This document shows, piece after piece, positions 1,880-46,831 of a stretch of 47,260 nucleotides of DNA (the stretch's first letter is position 1; each line of letters begins with the position of its first letter). A program made the position numbers and the translations under genes. Where the stretch lies: positions 1-47,260 of the forward strand of contig JAKOVI010000075.1 in the NCBI GenBank assembly GCA_029782135.1, in the 5' to 3' direction. The notes under the pieces were generated by a model. That model had not been told where the DNA came from and did not search any database. It saw only the letters and a program-made list of their open reading frames with translations. The stretch comes from Bacillota bacterium. Its GTDB lineage: Bacteria; Bacillota; UBA4882; UBA10575.

Positions 1880-3493
1880 TTAATAGAGGCGCTCATAATA
1901 TTCGTTCAGCATCCGTTCGGCGGAAAATTTTCGCTGCGCCATTTCGATGCTGGCGCGCATCATTCTTTCCCATTGCTCACGCCGCTCGTAATAAGTGGGG
2001 ATGATATCCTGCAATAAAGTGTGGTACAGCGACTCCAGATCCACCTGATCCTGCCCCGGTCCTTCGTACCCATCGCCGATCTGCCAGCCTGTCTCCCCCG
2101 GCTGATACCCTTCCGGCCACCAGCCGTCCAAGACGCTGAAGTTAAGAACCCCGTTCATCGCCGCTTTCATCCCCGAAGTCCCGCTCGCTTCCATCGGCCG
2201 GCGCGGGTTATTGAGCCACAGATCACAGCCTCTGGTCATCAGTTTCGCGATCTTCATATCATAATCTTGCAGGAAGACCACGCTCTCCGGATAACGCGCG
2301 GCAACCTTGTAGATCCGGGCGACGATCTTTTTCCCTTCCAGGTCATTGGGGTGGGCTTTCCCGGAGAAGATCAACTGGAGCTTCCCCGCGGTCAGGAACG
2401 GCTCAATCACTTCCAACTCCCGGAAGATCAGGTCGCCCCGTTTATACGGCGTCATGCGCCGGGCAAACCCGATCGTCAAGACCTCGTCCCTTAAACGCAC
2501 CCCGTTCCGCAGGTAGACTTCTTCCAGCAATCGCCGTTTCGCTGCCATGTGGACAGCCCAGAGACTTTCCCCCCGCTGGTAGGCAAGGAGAATCTCCGGA
2601 TCCTGCCAGGTCCCGCGGTGTACCCCGTTCGTAATCCCGATAATCTCCGGAATCCCTGATACCCCGCTCCACATCTTCGTCGCGGTCGCCGCATGTAATT
2701 GGGCGACGGCGTTTACCTTTTTCGCCAGCCGCATCCCGGCCACCGTCATACTGAAGGGCTCGCCCCCCAGTTTTAACATCTCACCGTAGGTCAGCCCGTT
2801 ATAAGCACCCATATACCGGAGGAGTTCATGCTCGTGAACCTCGTTCCCCTCTTTCACCGGGGTATGGGTCGTGAAGACAATCTGTTTCTTCGTTTCTGCC
2901 AAGGCCTCCTCAAAGGACATACCCTGCCCTTCGATCTTCTCCCGCAGTAACTCAAGGCCGGCCGGCACCGGATGACTGTCATTAAAATGATAGATATCCA
3001 CCTGGATCCCCAGCTTTCTAAGGGCGCGGACCCCACCGATCCCCAAAATCATCTCCTGGGCGATCCGCTCCTCGGAAAACCACCCATAGAGCTGCCCGGT
3101 GATCAGGCGGTCATCATTCTCCGGCAGGTTGGCATCAAGGAGATATAAAGGGGCGTTTTGAAAGGCCGTACACTTCCAGATCTTACAACGGACCTGCCGC
3201 CCCCTGATCCGCACCAGAACCGTCTCTTCGGTATCCTCCAGAAAGTCGTATTGATGTTCGTGATAACAATCATAGACCAGTCCATGACGGTCAATTAACT
3301 GCCGGGTATACCCCTGGCGCCAGAGGATCCCGACACCGACCATCGGGAAATTACAGTCCCGGGCGGCTTTCAAGATATCGCCGGCGAGAATCCCCAAACC
3401 CCCGGAATAGATCTTAAAATCCTCATGGAGCCCGAATTCCATGCAAAAATAGGCGACGCGAGGCCGTTTGACTTCTTCATAGCCGTTTTTCAC
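1880..3493 (-). CDS. glgP: alpha-glucan phosphorylase, short form
   Basis: Releases glucose-1-phosphate from the non-reducing ends of glycogen or maltodextrin using pyridoxal phosphate. The 537-residue product carries the N-terminal FCMEFGL and YSGGLGILAGD motifs and, near residue 435, EASGTSGMKAAMNG, the phosphorylase signature containing the PLP-binding Lys. It belongs to the compact alpha-glucan phosphorylase type rather than the 800-residue GlgP/MalP type. The start is GTG at 3493 behind an AGGGG ribosome-binding site, overlapping the upstream stop as GTGA. An in-frame extension to 3577 would run back into the neighbour and is rejected. It is translationally coupled to the GH13 gene, which points to joint alpha-glucan breakdown. 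Confidence 0.9.
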   Translation of the reverse strand: MKNGYEEVKRPRVAYFCMEFGLHEDFKIYSGGLGILAGDILKAARDCNFPMVGVGILWRQGYTRQLIDRHGLVYDCYHEHQYDFLEDTEETVLVRIRGRQVRCKIWKCTAFQNAPLYLLDANLPENDDRLITGQLYGWFSEERIAQEMILGIGGVRALRKLGIQVDIYHFNDSHPVPAGLELLREKIEGQGMSFEEALAETKKQIVFTTHTPVKEGNEVHEHELLRYMGAYNGLTYGEMLKLGGEPFSMTVAGMRLAKKVNAVAQLHAATATKMWSGVSGIPEIIGITNGVHRGTWQDPEILLAYQRGESLWAVHMAAKRRLLEEVYLRNGVRLRDEVLTIGFARRMTPYKRGDLIFRELEVIEPFLTAGKLQLIFSGKAHPNDLEGKKIVARIYKVAARYPESVVFLQDYDMKIAKLMTRGCDLWLNNPRRPMEASGTSGMKAAMNGVLNFSVLDGWWPEGYQPGETGWQIGDGYEGPGQDQVDLESLYHTLLQDIIPTYYERREQWERMMRASIEMAQRKFSAERMLNEYYERLY

Positions 3494-7081: not shown

Positions 7082-8429
7082 CATCCTGCCCGGCAATTTG
7101 GGCGGCGTTCAAGGCTAGTGCGCATTCCAGCCGTTTTTGGAGTAAACGGCAGGCTAAGCGATCGGGTTTTAAGATATCGCCATTGGCGAAGTACGCATGG
7201 GCGTGGCAACCGCCGCTGCAGTAGTACCGCGCCCAACACGTCCGGCATCCTTCCTTTTCGTAGAAGCGCGCCCGGCCGAAGGTCTCCCGAATCTCCGGCG
7301 CGGTGATCCCGGTAAAAACATTGCCCACGAGAAACTGTTTCTCCCCAACAAACTGGTGGCAGGGGTATAATTCGCCCTGGGGCGTCACCGCCAGGTAATC
7401 AAAACCGGCCCCGCAACCCAACAGGCGCTTCGGCAAGCAGGGCCCTTTCTCCAAGTCGACGACAAAGTGGAAGAAACGGAAAGGATCCCCCGCCTGCTGC
7501 CGTTCCCAATAAAACGCGGCCAACCGCTCGTATTCTTCATCAATCCGGGGCAGATCTTCCTCACGGAGGGCATAAGGGAACTCCGGGGCGCAAACTACCG
7601 GTTCGACAGAGATCGAGCGCATCCCAAGTTCGTAAAGGTGCTTGACATCTTCACTAAAGTCCAGGTTGTACCGGGTAAAGGTCCCGCGCACGTAGTAGTT
7701 TAACTCCGGAAAGTCGCGGATCACCTCTTTGATCCGTGGAACAATCCGTTGATAGGTACCCTTCCCCCGCATCCGGTCATTGACGGCTTCCCGACCGTCC
7801 AAACTCAAGACCAGACCCATCCGGTGTACGCGCAAGAATTCCAGGAGTTTACGGTTTAACCCAAGGGTATTGGTGGTCAGGGTAAAATGCATCTTTTTGC
7901 CGGCCGCGGCCGCTTTCTCCTCCCCGTATGCCACCAGCTCCAACATTAAACCGGTATTGAGGAGCGGTTCCCCACCGAAGAAATCCACTTCCAAGTGGTC
8001 TTTCGCCCCGGAGCTGGCAATCAGAAAGTCAAGCGCCGCCCGTCCAACCGCCGGCGCCATGATCCCCCGGTCGCCGCCGAAGGCACCGCCGCCGGCAAAA
8101 CAGTAGACACAGCGTAACTGGCAATCATGGCTCAAATGGAGACAGAGCGCTTTGAGCTCCGGTTTTAAGTTAAAGACCGGCGCTTCCAGGAAGGGGTCCC
8201 GTTCCGGCAGGTAACCCGCTTCTTTTAAAGCAGCCAGTTCCTCCTCTACTTCCGCTCTGACCGCCGGAGAACAACGGCGCGCCAACAATTCCCGGTACGT
8301 AGCAGCCTCCGCCGGTTCCTCCTCCGCCCGGAGCCGCCAAAAAGTCGGCTCGTCGATCTGAAAGAGCGAATTGGAAGGGGTGTCAAAGAGATAATACTGA
8401 TCGAAGAAAGCGAAAACATGCCAGTTCAT
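7071..8429 (-). CDS. scfB: SCIFF peptide maturase, radical SAM/SPASM protein
   Basis: Installs the Cys-Thr thioether in the SCIFF precursor by radical SAM chemistry. The 452-residue product has an N-terminal peptide-recognition (RRE-like) part (about 1-90), then the radical SAM motif CQLRCVYC with Cys at about 103, 107 and 110. The C-terminal SPASM region has clustered cysteines (CGAGFDYLAV, PCHQF, CRTCWARYYCSGGCHAH and a final ACR) for auxiliary Fe-S clusters. I chose the ATG at 8429 because GGTGA precedes it at good spacing; the ATG at 8444 lies in the U-tract of the upstream terminator and has no ribosome-binding site. The neighbouring peptide gene settles the identity. Confidence 0.93.
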   Translation of the reverse strand: MNWHVFAFFDQYYLFDTPSNSLFQIDEPTFWRLRAEEEPAEAATYRELLARRCSPAVRAEVEEELAALKEAGYLPERDPFLEAPVFNLKPELKALCLHLSHDCQLRCVYCFAGGGAFGGDRGIMAPAVGRAALDFLIASSGAKDHLEVDFFGGEPLLNTGLMLELVAYGEEKAAAAGKKMHFTLTTNTLGLNRKLLEFLRVHRMGLVLSLDGREAVNDRMRGKGTYQRIVPRIKEVIRDFPELNYYVRGTFTRYNLDFSEDVKHLYELGMRSISVEPVVCAPEFPYALREEDLPRIDEEYERLAAFYWERQQAGDPFRFFHFVVDLEKGPCLPKRLLGCGAGFDYLAVTPQGELYPCHQFVGEKQFLVGNVFTGITAPEIRETFGRARFYEKEGCRTCWARYYCSGGCHAHAYFANGDILKPDRLACRLLQKRLECALALNAAQIAGQDDTP

Positions 8430-9897: not shown

Positions 9898-11322
9898 CTA
9901 ATTTTCTCCGGTATTGGCGGCCTGATCAACCTTTCCCACCCGGGCCCGGACATATTGCCATTTCCCGGAGGTGAACCGGAAGAAAATGAGGAATGAACGG
10001 GTATATTGGTCCAGGACAAAGGCAACCCACGCCCCAATCAGGCCCCAGTTGAAAACATGCACGAAAATATAGGCAATCAAGACCCGGAAGAGCCAGATAC
10101 TGGAGGCGGATGCAAACAAGGGAAAGACCGTATCACCGGCCCCCCGCAAGGCCCCGGCCAACGTAAACTGGGTGGACTGCCCTGGTAAGGAAAGGGCAAA
10201 GATCTTCAGAATGGTCCCCGCCATCCCGGCCACGACCAGATCGGAGGTGTACAAGCGGGCTAAAGAATGGGAAAAAAGGATAAACAAGCACCCAACAAAA
10301 CACGCAACCGCGACAGCAATCCGGTGAACCGTATGGGCACACCGTTCCGCCCGGGGTACATCGCCGGCGCCCAGGCTCTGCCCGACCAGCGTGGTCGAAG
10401 CAACCGAAAAGGCCATGCTCGGAGCAAAGGCCAAACTACTGATATTTATGCCAATCTGGTGGGCGGCAAAACTTAAAGTCCCCAGGGCGGAAACGGTCCG
10501 GGCGAACATCATGATCCCGCTCTGGAGGACAAACTGTTCCAGGGCCGCCGGTACACCGATCTGGAATATTTTCCTGATGAGCGCCAGATTTGGCCGGTAA
10601 TTATCTTTAAACCGCAACTTGATCTTCGTTTGCGGCAAAAAATAAACGACAAACAAACCGGCCAGGCAAGCCAGCAAGCGGGAAAGCGAAGTGGAAAGCG
10701 CCGCCCCGGCCACTCCCAATTGCGGGAAACCCAATTTCCCATAGATCAGTACATAATTGCCGAAAACATTCAGAAGGTTGCTGCCGACATTGTAGAGCAT
10801 CGGGATTCTGGTTTCGCCCGCACCCCGGAGCGACGCGGTAATCCCCATCGTCATCGCCTGGAAGAGCAACCCGCCGGCCACAATCCGAAAGTATGCCACC
10901 GCCATCCCCATCGTATCAGGGCCGGCGCCCATGAACCGGACAATCGGGCGGGCACTGCAGAACCCAACCGCACTCATGATAATCCCCAACAACAAGTTAA
11001 CGACAAGCGTTTGGCGTGTAACGGCACACGCATCATTAATGTTTTTTCCCCCGATATTCCAAGCCACCAAAGTAGTGGTCCCGATATTAACCGCCGCAAA
11101 AACTGCCAGGAGAAGCATAAAAGGCTGACGGGTCAAGCCAACCGCCGCAATTGCCGCCGGACCCAACCCCCCCACCATCATCATATCCACCATCTCAAAC
11201 AAGGTCGACATGACCAATTCAATAAACGCCGGAGCAGTGATGGTAATGATCTCTTGCCATAACGGCTGCGAACGGAAACTCAAACCTGCCTGGATTTTTG
11301 CTCTCAACACTGGTTGCTTCAA
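9898..11322 (-). CDS. MATE-family multidrug/cation exporter
   Basis: Inner-membrane exporter of 474 residues with about twelve hydrophobic helices in two similar halves. MATE hallmarks include an early P-A-F-I-E-L segment, VDMMMVGGLGPAAIAAVGL, and the half-two VGQSLGAGDVPRAER. The start is TTG at 11322 with GGAGG eight bases before it; an in-frame TTG at 11337 overlaps that ribosome-binding site. It is probably co-transcribed with the phosphofructokinase gene. Upstream is an extended -10 (TGATATAAT on the minus strand) at about 11380-11390. Substrate is not readable. Confidence 0.9.
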   Translation of the reverse strand: MKQPVLRAKIQAGLSFRSQPLWQEIITITAPAFIELVMSTLFEMVDMMMVGGLGPAAIAAVGLTRQPFMLLLAVFAAVNIGTTTLVAWNIGGKNINDACAVTRQTLVVNLLLGIIMSAVGFCSARPIVRFMGAGPDTMGMAVAYFRIVAGGLLFQAMTMGITASLRGAGETRIPMLYNVGSNLLNVFGNYVLIYGKLGFPQLGVAGAALSTSLSRLLACLAGLFVVYFLPQTKIKLRFKDNYRPNLALIRKIFQIGVPAALEQFVLQSGIMMFARTVSALGTLSFAAHQIGINISSLAFAPSMAFSVASTTLVGQSLGAGDVPRAERCAHTVHRIAVAVACFVGCLFILFSHSLARLYTSDLVVAGMAGTILKIFALSLPGQSTQFTLAGALRGAGDTVFPLFASASSIWLFRVLIAYIFVHVFNWGLIGAWVAFVLDQYTRSFLIFFRFTSGKWQYVRARVGKVDQAANTGEN

Positions 11323-44789: not shown

Positions 44790-44808
44790 GTCTACCAAGC
44801 AGGTTTTT
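44782..44808 (+). terminator. Terminator overlapping the flavodoxin stop
   Basis: CTTGGTAG-GT-CTACCAAG followed by CAGGTTTTTCT; the TAG stop (44787-44789) lies inside the 5' arm. Confidence 0.75.
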
Positions 44809-44809
44809 C

Positions 44810-45117
44810 TAAATTTTACTGATTTTATATTGAGTTTAGTATGAAGGATTTGGTGAACAAATTAGAATTATCCCTCATTGATGTCCTGATGCAACACAAA
44901 AGCTATACTTTTAAAAACAACCGTTACAATCTTATACAAAGTCCCTCCGTTAAAGAATTTACGATTTTTTTACTTTGTCTATACATTTGCTTTATATTAT
45001 TTTTGCATTTTATTCACATTATCTTGACAAAAAGTAACCTATAGGTTATATTAATAATAGCTCATCTACCATGTTGTAGAAGGAGACGTGCCGGCATTCG
45101 CAAAGCGAGAGCCGGTA
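44810..45117. other. AT-rich gene-free stretch
   Basis: Base composition falls well below the flanking regions. A 67-codon frame at 44841-45044 lacks a ribosome-binding site and overlaps the small-RNA promoter; I do not support it. The only convincing element is the small-RNA locus at 45024-45128. Confidence 0.6.
45024..45052 (+). promoter_or_regulatory. Consensus promoter with internal palindromic operator
   Basis: TTGACA (45024-45029), 17 bases, TATATT (45047-45052). The spacer and -10 contain TAACCTATAGGTTA (45035-45048), a perfect 14-bp palindrome, so a repressor bound here would block the promoter. Confidence 0.75.
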
Positions 45118-45128
45118 TTATTTTTTTT
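45059..45128 (+). ncRNA. Candidate small RNA, about 70 nt
   Basis: The transcript would begin about 45059 and hold a small CTAC/GTAG hairpin (45066-45079), an AGGAG stretch (45081-45085), and a final hairpin CCGGC...CGC-AAA-GCG...GCCGG (45091-45115) followed by TATTA and eight T. The final hairpin and T run form a strong terminator. It ends on the 3' end of the minus-strand gene 45118-45753. A GTG at 45088 after AGGAG could start a short peptide, but it would run into the terminator. It is either a stand-alone sRNA or a stranded leader. Confidence 0.55.
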
Positions 45129-45753
45129 CAGCATTGGCAGCTGTTTGCATAGCGGTTTTAGATGCTTGATAATCTGCATATTGTGTATCGCAAATTTGCT
45201 TTTTATTTACATAGAAAAGAGGAAATGCACTTACAAACAAAAATCCAGTTTTTCTCACAGATAAGACAACTAAATAGTCGGTATTCTCATGCTCAAAACG
45301 AACATTATAGTCCTTTCCTTTTCCCTTATGCTCCCATTCCCATTCCTTTATAAAAGGATCTATATTGTTAGCCAATTCAATAATTTTTTTAATCCAATGA
45401 ATCCGGATTCCTCTGTAGAAACATATGTTTCTTTTTTTCCCATTTGGTAATATAATAAAATTATTTTGGGTAAGACAATTTTGATCAGAACATTTAGTAT
45501 ATGAAATATCATTATTACACGGTAACACATTAAACTTTTCTGATTCTGAAAGACTTATTAGATGCCAAAAAAATAGAAATTTATCGTTGTGTAGATTTCT
45601 AAAATCAAAAAAAATCCTTTTCCCATGCAAATATAGTATATTTTGGGGACCTGTATATTCCTTCTTAAAGCTATCATATAAAAACTCAATAATATCTTCT
45701 GTCGAAGTCAAATTAGAAATATCAAGAACAGGGGGAAGTTTAGACGAATTCAT
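45118..45753 (-). CDS. Unassigned protein with RelE/EndoU-like (PBECR-type) C-terminal region
   Basis: A 211-residue protein. The N-terminal half contains three cysteines near 85-98 (LPCNNDISYTKCSDQNC) and a CFYR near 119. The C-terminal half, from RIHWIKKIIELAN to YPLFYVNKKQICDTQYADY, has alternating helices and strands (DYLVVLSVRKTGFLFVSAFPLFY) that resemble PBECR nuclease-fold toxins of phage and mobile elements; this is my recollection, not a search. ATG at 45753 overlaps the preceding stop (ATGA) with AAGGGGG upstream. Very AT-rich. Could be the effector of a defence or toxin-antitoxin module. Confidence 0.55.
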   Translation of the reverse strand: MNSSKLPPVLDISNLTSTEDIIEFLYDSFKKEYTGPQNILYLHGKRIFFDFRNLHNDKFLFFWHLISLSESEKFNVLPCNNDISYTKCSDQNCLTQNNFIILPNGKKRNICFYRGIRIHWIKKIIELANNIDPFIKEWEWEHKGKGKDYNVRFEHENTDYLVVLSVRKTGFLFVSAFPLFYVNKKQICDTQYADYQASKTAMQTAANAEKK

Positions 45754-46472
45754 CTTGCACACCCCCTTGGGACCCATATAAAAACATTGAACTTTTCTTC
45801 TGATCTTTTCGTACTCAATTGCAAATTTATGCCTTTTTCTCTTAAATGTTCAATTATTACATTTTTACCTTTATTACTTCCTGGACGATTATATAGGTTT
45901 CGATGAACATAAGACAAAGCTCCATTAAATAAATCAGCTATTTGTAGAACTTCTGATTCTTGAGAACGAATTTGCTTTACATCTTTAATAACTTCATGTT
46001 TAAAGTCATATTTATTATTACATAAAACTTCATGGAGTTTCCAAATTTTAGGGCCACCTTGGGTATCTTTTATATCAATAAAGATTCGATACTCTTCTAA
46101 AGGATCTATAATAGGATCAAGCAATAAGAAATACATTTTGTAGTACCACAGATTATAATCGCCACAATTATAAAGAATGTGGTCTAACCTTTTTTTATTT
46201 GTTGCAACAACACCTCGATAGCTTAATGCCGAGTCCCTAAAAAAATAATCGATTATATCAAGATAAAAGTTGATCTTTGCTATAGATACTTTTGTCCATT
46301 TAATTTCAAACCATGAACTTAATCCGTGTTTTATTTTAATATCTCTTATGTTGTTAATGATCCTTTTTTTTAAATTATCTTGACATTTAACTGCTCCTAG
46401 AACCATTACATTCGAGTTGTCATATGGTAAGTGACAGCTTTCATCGCAATATATATTATAGAGACTATTCAT
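45750..46472 (-). CDS. DUF3800-domain protein
   Basis: A 240-residue protein. The N-terminus reads NIYCDESCHLPYDN followed by VMVLGAVKC, and later pieces are WFEIKWTKVS near 55, YRIFIDIKDTQGGPK near 130 and EVLQIADLFNGALSYV near 180. Acidic residues in these strands fit the RNase H-like fold attributed to DUF3800, a family often found in mobile and defence regions. The ATG at 46472 follows AGGAAG; a GTG at 46481 in frame is less likely. It overlaps the next gene by four bases (ATGA). AT-rich, unlike its neighbours. Confidence 0.78.
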   Translation of the reverse strand: MNSLYNIYCDESCHLPYDNSNVMVLGAVKCQDNLKKRIINNIRDIKIKHGLSSWFEIKWTKVSIAKINFYLDIIDYFFRDSALSYRGVVATNKKRLDHILYNCGDYNLWYYKMYFLLLDPIIDPLEEYRIFIDIKDTQGGPKIWKLHEVLCNNKYDFKHEVIKDVKQIRSQESEVLQIADLFNGALSYVHRNLYNRPGSNKGKNVIIEHLREKGINLQLSTKRSEEKFNVFIWVPRGCAR

Positions 46473-46831
46473 AATTATCACTTCCTAACCAAAGATTGTT
46501 TCTATATAACGTTAGTTTTGAAATATTATAGATAAACAACATATAAAAATTCTATTGTATCTTTTCCATTCTACAACTATTATTAATACCCATCAGCGCT
46601 ATTCGCTTCTGACCTTATTTCTTTATTTTTCAGAATATATGTCATTAATGCTTCAAAATCTAGTTTAATGTAACATTCTATCTACTTACGGAATCTTCCT
46701 TCTCTGAGCTTGATTCCCAGACCTTTTTCAGAAAACTATGTCCACAATTACTGATAACCGAAAACAGAAAAAAACCTCCTCACCTGAGTCCTGCACTCAA
46801 GGGAGGAGGTTTGTTTTACTGGAATGAACAC
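46473..46831. other. 359-bp AT-rich upstream region of the DUF3800 module
   Basis: It probably holds the module's promoter: on the minus strand a TATAAT lies near 46525-46533, without a clear -35. A partial inverted copy of the small-RNA start region (TATTAATAATAG, then TTGTAGAA) lies at 46569-46588. A terminator occupies its right end. No gene is supported. Confidence 0.5.
46772..46812 (-). terminator. Terminator of the uridine kinase-like gene
   Basis: AAACCTCCTC/GAGGAGGTTT outer stem with TGAGT/ACTCA inside, followed on the minus strand by TTTTC. Confidence 0.85.

Follow-up and report, generated by a model that had tools for sequence, protein, structure and literature searches.

A bacterial copy of the phage P1 gene pair rlfA-rlfB is accompanied by a convergent small RNA gene whose relatives also stand alone in phages

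Our results indicate, from sequence comparison, that an AT-rich gene pair on a contig of a Bacillota bacterium is a bacterial copy of rlfA-rlfB from phage P1, and that a small RNA (sRNA) gene converges on its 3' end. The protein pair is of a kind already known and is not new; the sRNA gene is absent from Rfam 15. The window, that is, the whole stretch of DNA analyzed here, spans 47,260 nucleotides, and the features discussed below are collected in Table 1. A first-pass annotation of this DNA had stopped at the stop codon of the second gene and had therefore missed the sRNA gene.

Table 1 Features of the rlfAB-like cassette and its sRNA gene (window positions)
Feature	Position	Strand	Basis or remark
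AT-rich inserted cassette, 30% G+C	44790-46830 (about)		Composition; filled and empty sites in relatives
Sigma-70 promoter of the sRNA gene, TTGACA-N17-TATATT	45024-45052	+	11/12 matches; best site of the cassette
sRNA gene, ~70 nt, convergent, ending at the stop codon of B	45058-45127 (about)	+	R1 match, folding z score, locus conservation
Conserved hairpin, CUC-A-UCUAC-(loop)-GUAGA-AG-GAG	45061-45085	+	Covariation, G.U strand test
Second, GC-rich hairpin and U-run, intrinsic terminator over the last codons of B	45088-45128	+	Fold, U-run
Gene B, RlfB/PDC-M04B homolog, 211 aa	45118-45753	-	PDC-M04B match (E = 1.8e-54), alignments, AF2
ATGA, overlap of the stop of A and the start of B	45750-45753	-	4-base overlap or small gap (a few bases) in the majority of homologous loci
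Gene A, DUF3800, RlfA/PDC-M04A homolog, predicted RNase HII-like nuclease, 240 aa	45750-46472	-	Profiles, AF2, fold search

Both genes, designated A and B, were confirmed as real by the list of open reading frames and their translations. A matches the PADLOC model PDC-M04A (PDLC04353; E = 2.4e-84) and B matches PDC-M04B (PDLC04362; Table 1), and RlfA and RlfB of P1 match the same two models (1e-95 and 1e-51, respectively). A is 47.7% identical to P1 RlfA across 98% of its length. The pair, which had been considered impossible to name on first pass, can thus be named as P1 RlfA/RlfB and PDC-M04. A scan of viral contigs identified 57 further loci, almost all of them with B directly behind A, with an overlap or a short gap; the conserved pairing that the first-pass annotation had put forward as a check is kept far beyond chance. 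The ATGA overlap that it had noted is present, and translational coupling of A and B via this overlap is likely. B is too divergent for some searches: it yielded no matches when used by itself against whole-genome contigs, and alignment A1 yielded none against viral contigs. L020 is an RlfAB locus of Bacillus. In one genome (G283), a single reading frame (L207, 1570-2568) matches both the A and the B profile and is possibly a fusion or a frameshifted pair.

The P1 locus (rapA-rapB in P7) has homologous genes in the same order, with the same convergent RNA after rlfB. In P1, rlfAB comes after repL/oriL and carries the annotation "possibly associated with lytic replication." A C1 operator is marked there, and the genes are controlled by the phage C1 repressor. 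Knockdown by CRISPRi classified rlfA and rlfB as nonessential for P1 (PMC10695390). P1 RlfB is a short form without a four-cysteine insert, whereas B of the window is a long form, and the window copy, unlike the P1 genes next to repL, is chromosomal as far as its flanks show. PDC-M04 is a two-gene candidate defense system whose role in defense is unproven, and the PADLOC models span only the two proteins and no RNA. The searchable literature yielded neither a published phage-defense test of an RlfAB pair nor a paper naming PDC-M04. The defense module proposed on first pass thus agrees with the listing of the pair as a candidate (PDC-M04), but its protein-only composition does not stand, as the sRNA belongs to it.

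A matches DUF3800 (Pfam PF12686; E = 7.7e-13), the family to which the first-pass annotation had assigned it. A structural model of A (AF2, 38 homologs; pLDDT of 93.6) retrieved RNase HII (1eke; E = 9.6e-6) as its best match in a fold search of the PDB, together with 1io2, 3p83, and others at E values of 1e-5 to 1e-3. A thus has an RNase H type 2 fold in the model, in agreement with the RNase H-like character expected on first pass and with a published account in which DUF3800 is an RNase H fold that has undergone catalytic rearrangement (PMC10910872). Among the 38 homologs, E56, K58, D133, K135, D136, and D180 show no variation, and at least 90% keep D10 and E11. The conserved acids lie at the end of strand 1, at the end of a central strand, and in a helix, which are the places of the D-E-D-D residues of RNase HII, a correspondence mapped by secondary structure. 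The model therefore suggests that A is a nuclease with a D-E...D...D catalytic site.

The structure prediction proposed earlier as a check gave a confident model of B as well (AF2, 37 homologs; pLDDT of 90.2), which had no significant match in the PDB; the sole strong match in the fold search was an uncharacterized phage protein. F62, H64, R108, R114, R117, W120, Y160, and A176 are conserved positions. The four-cysteine insert of B, which is found in the long Bacillota forms and is probably a zinc site, is missing from P1 RlfB. The first-pass annotation had described B as PBECR-like, with a C terminus resembling RelE/EndoU-type RNases. B had no Pfam match, PBECR3 was reached by only 1 of 10 B homologs (E = 0.06), and the C-terminal half of B, a helix plus four strands, gave only weak RelE-like and NendoU matches (E values of 0.5 to 0.9). 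Pfam, NCBIfam, PDB sequences, and fold comparison lent no support to a PBECR identity, and a PBECR/RelE link of B is at best tentative.

The G+C contents of A and B (0.297 and 0.296, or 30%) differ from that of window positions 1-44799 (0.518, or 52%), as the first-pass description of an AT-rich pair in a balanced background had indicated. The cassette is bordered by an FMN-reductase gene on one side and a kinase-like gene on the other. The same site holds the same insertion in one relative (G403, locus L015) and is empty in two others (G375 and G266), where the FMN-reductase and kinase-like genes are only ~113 to 157 bp apart. Horizontal gain of the cassette is therefore most likely. Its open reading frames include no recognizable transposase gene. 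A 12-nt inverted repeat (45049-45060/46577-46588) was considered as a pair of transposon ends and was rejected, as it reflects a partial, inverted duplicate of the RNA promoter region and could not be seen upstream in L015. This copy, TTCTACAACTATTATTAATA (46569-46588, plus strand), lies at the other end of the cassette, corresponds to the sRNA promoter/hairpin region from 45049 onwards, and has 13 nt missing.

Conservation of the DNA 3' of B extends to loci with proteins just ~50% identical. In 42 sequences, 99.1% of cells in the hairpin are paired, and 7 of its 8 pairs have changes on both sides; none of 500 shuffles that keep the relatedness of the sequences reached the observed values, and sliding the partners abolished the signal. 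G.U pairs occupy 21 cells on the RNA strand (which would be A.C on the strand of B) versus 2 on the opposite strand, and the RNA strand of the second hairpin is the more stable one in 32 of 40 loci. These counts, together with the promoter, place the sRNA on the strand that does not encode A and B. A 3'-untranslated-region hairpin of the rlfAB transcript was rejected, as 21 G.U cells would turn into A.C and both the promoter and the U-run point in the opposite direction. In most loci, TTGACA-like boxes are present and the -10 element ends 8 nt upstream of CTC. The Bacteroidota copies have a promoter of their lineage type (TAnnTTTGC) instead, and the P1 copy has a TTGAAA-N17-TAGATT promoter and a terminator.

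The window sRNA (folding z score of -5.1) matched none of the 4,227 models of Rfam 15 on its own strand at E values of 5 or below, and the P1 copy matched none at E values of 1 or below. The models of the DUF3800-I to DUF3800-XI RNAs gave no match on either strand, and a known Rfam RNA was thus rejected, with no credible family for either copy. A mention of the sRNA outside Rfam could still stand in the original paper on the DUF3800 RNAs by Weinberg and colleagues. From these comparisons, the sRNA looks like a member uncatalogued in Rfam that accompanies the RlfAB branch as its partner.

R1, a covariance model built from the hairpin and giving rough E values, recognizes a single site in the window (45057-45094; E = 9.3e-7) and no other in the genome. 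Of 56 RlfAB loci with intact B, P1 among them, 55 have an RNA recognized by R1 that converges on the 3' end of B, and in the remaining one (L061) a divergent RNA copy is visible by eye. Two further loci (L047 and L049) have a truncated B that an insertion seems to have cut short. When 398 genomes from the phylum were compared, strong RNA matches came from four, which are also the four with the best B matches, and in each the RNA is convergent with B and lies near it. A fifth genome, G150, matches B only through a fragment interrupted by stops. G403 provides one more case of the RNA with RlfAB. Weak R1 matches in genomes comprise a seemingly real RNA with no A or B within 1.5 kb (L212) and two matches that look like chance (L211 and L213). 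One locus (L068) carries two RNA copies (7345-7368 and 7571-7594) downstream of a single RlfAB pair.

Similar arrangements are found at other DUF3800 genes. A DUF3800-VIII RNA lies convergent downstream of other DUF3800 genes in L012 and L013, and a DUF3800-VII RNA lies convergent downstream of another in L014. A DUF3800 gene with a convergent sRNA thus looks like a general plan, as far as gene order tells. Just past the stop codon of an M04A-like DUF3800 gene without B (L011, genome G001), we observed a different convergent structured RNA with a TTGACA-N17-TAATCT promoter, a minimum free energy (MFE) z score of -4.6, and no matching Rfam family. Three loci represent a related prophage site: L064 has RlfAB and the RNA, L131 retains a nearly identical RNA next to an exonuclease-like gene, and in L157 the RNA faces a different, single-gene DUF3800.

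The RNA is also found away from the pair. The exact hairpin pattern, which was built from paired loci and thus samples copies resembling them, occurs in at least 120 places in viral contigs, versus far fewer than 1 expected by a simple base-count estimate. Among 80 viral copies examined, 14 are accompanied by A/B, 52 stand alone, and 14 could be assigned neither way; a copy was called stand-alone when no A/B was present in at least 1.5 kb of sequence on that side, and some of the records are fragments. No DUF3800 gene at all is present in 41 of 44 RNA-bearing virus records. The complete SPbeta (134 kb) and the Vibrio phage 1.121 record (146 kb) have the RNA and no DUF3800 gene. Many stand-alone copies sit among phage tRNA genes, and in one such tRNA region of a large phage (L108), a ROOL RNA (2879-3444) was observed as well. 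The second hairpin is retained in stand-alone copies (mean z score of -2.8, versus -0.2 for upstream DNA). On Escherichia coli chromosomes, prophage-like and satellite-like loci carry P1-type RNAs whose stem changes are compensated, and they lack rlfAB.

Of the 31 stand-alone loci that were scanned, 6 have a DUF3800-VII, DUF3800-VIII, or abiF RNA within 140 nt on the same strand. A DUF3800-VIII RNA follows ~95 nt after the RNA in SPbeta (L202), L097, L102, and L137; the RNA comes after a DUF3800-VII RNA in L085; and in L092, a viral contig of 121.7 kb, an abiF RNA (10230-10266) precedes the RlfAB-type RNA by 138 nt. A search of the array-bearing records (SPbeta-like, L085, and L092) found no DUF3800 and no Abi_2 genes. 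A second SPbeta RNA of the same scaffold with another stem, CUCAUGUACC..GUACAAGGAG (L202, 4063-4087), was observed between the first copy and the DUF3800-VIII RNA and is also present in 21 other SPbeta-like contigs. The RNA cluster of SPbeta occupies about 59.4-59.66 kb of NC_001884. These arrays raise the possibility, which we advance tentatively and with somewhat more doubt than confidence, that they are compact, general anti-defense cassettes of structured RNAs, each copied, without the proteins, from a different RNA-restrained nuclease (RlfAB, DUF3800-VII, DUF3800-VIII, and AbiF).

Resemblances to known systems are partial. The Rfam DUF3800-VII and DUF3800-VIII RNAs likewise face a DUF3800 gene from its 3' side and are likewise solitary in SPbeta-like and other phages, but they are separate families from the window sRNA. 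Classical type III antitoxins are tandem repeats located upstream of the toxin and cotranscribed with it. The window RNA, which is single, convergent, and driven by its own promoter, does not have this layout, which speaks against the RNA-restrained nuclease proposed below. AbiF/RCd22 and ToxIN also combine a protein effector with a structured noncoding RNA (PMC12373285, PMC3475682), but their proteins are unrelated to RlfAB and their RNAs are upstream and repeated. RNA anti-CRISPRs (Racrs) are, like the copies described here, solitary phage copies of the RNA of a defense system (PMC10651486); they mimic CRISPR repeats, whereas the cognate system of the window RNA is a DUF3800 nuclease pair.

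We propose that A, B, and the sRNA form a three-part module in which the RNA restrains a nuclease, in a toxin-antitoxin-like or abortive-infection-like manner, and that the phage copies are mimics; in our judgment this reading is evenly poised between right and wrong. The sRNA would be transcribed constitutively from its own promoter, towards B, and its hairpin would bind the A-B complex and hold the nuclease silent. Recognition of GGAG in the manner of T4 RegB was also considered. When the sRNA is lost or diluted during phage attack, or when the locus is lost, the nuclease would be freed. Phages and satellites with the RNA alone would carry a mimic that disarms the RlfAB of their hosts or of rival prophages. 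The data show the layout of the module, its conservation, the strand and fold of the RNA, the promoter, the distribution, and solitary copies near other defense-linked RNAs; an inhibiting rather than activating RNA, catalysis by the nuclease, its trigger, and what the phage copies do are the parts that we infer.

That a restraining RNA has been copied by phages is suggested by two observations: intact B is always found with the RNA while the RNA is often found without the pair, and the neighbors of the RNA in arrays are DUF3800-VII, DUF3800-VIII, and abiF RNAs. This asymmetry is the pattern that a toxin and its antidote would be expected to give. Experiments have shown the AbiF RNA to be an antitoxin (PMC12373285), and phage PhiTE escapes ToxIN through an RNA mimic of the ToxI antitoxin (PMC3475682). 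Several points weigh against RNA restraint. The C1 operator by the P1 rlfAB promoter would silence the genes in the lysogen, and P1 was unharmed by knockdown of rlfA or rlfB (PMC10695390). The array argument is weakened by the low number of arrays, 4 of the 6 belonging to one SPbeta-like phage group, and the stand-alone argument by fragmentary contigs, where the apparent absence of the pair is no proof.

The main alternative, which we consider unlikely though it deserves serious weight, is that the sRNA is an essential activating cofactor or guide of an RlfAB effector ribonucleoprotein, with the phage copies acting as dominant-negative decoys. The constant company of the RNA at intact RlfAB would fit such a cofactor, as would the presence of DUF3800 proteins beside the RNA-guided Cas12a2 and VI-F systems (PMC10910872, PMC12669027). 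However, no variable guide region was seen in the sRNA, whose 5' hairpin is nearly invariant, and the RNA alone in many phages is hard to explain unless it is a dominant-negative decoy. A role of RlfAB and the RNA as accessories of lytic replication, for example, in the processing of RNA primers or hybrids, is less likely than an activating cofactor and improbable overall: the location and annotation of P1 rlfAB and the RNase HII fold of A favor it, but rlfAB is nonessential in P1, the pair also occurs on bacterial chromosomes beside ordinary genes, at sites that are empty in relatives, and the RNA is also found in tRNA arrays and near an abiF RNA. Most improbable is the protein-only module of the first-pass annotation, two RNases (RNase H-like and PBECR/RelE-like) with the RNA as an incidental terminator, for although A is RNase H-like and B has weak PBECR3, RelE-like, and NendoU matches, a covarying hairpin of 24 to 25 nt with a promoter at a fixed distance, kept from Bacteroidota to P1, is unexpected for a mere terminator, which moreover would not stand alone in other phages, and the conserved convergent sRNA is instead a third part.

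With an RNA-restrained nuclease as the working proposal, P1 rlfAB would gain a testable function beyond its present annotation, and the candidate defense system PDC-M04 gains an RNA partner. For DUF3800 nucleases more broadly, a common plan of a protein effector and a convergent sRNA is suggested. Unannotated RNA stretches in model phages, such as the yonN-yonK region of SPbeta, may be anti-defense cassettes. If our reading of the arrays is true, the window sRNA would be an uncatalogued member that ties P1 rlfAB to the RNA-restrained nuclease defenses.
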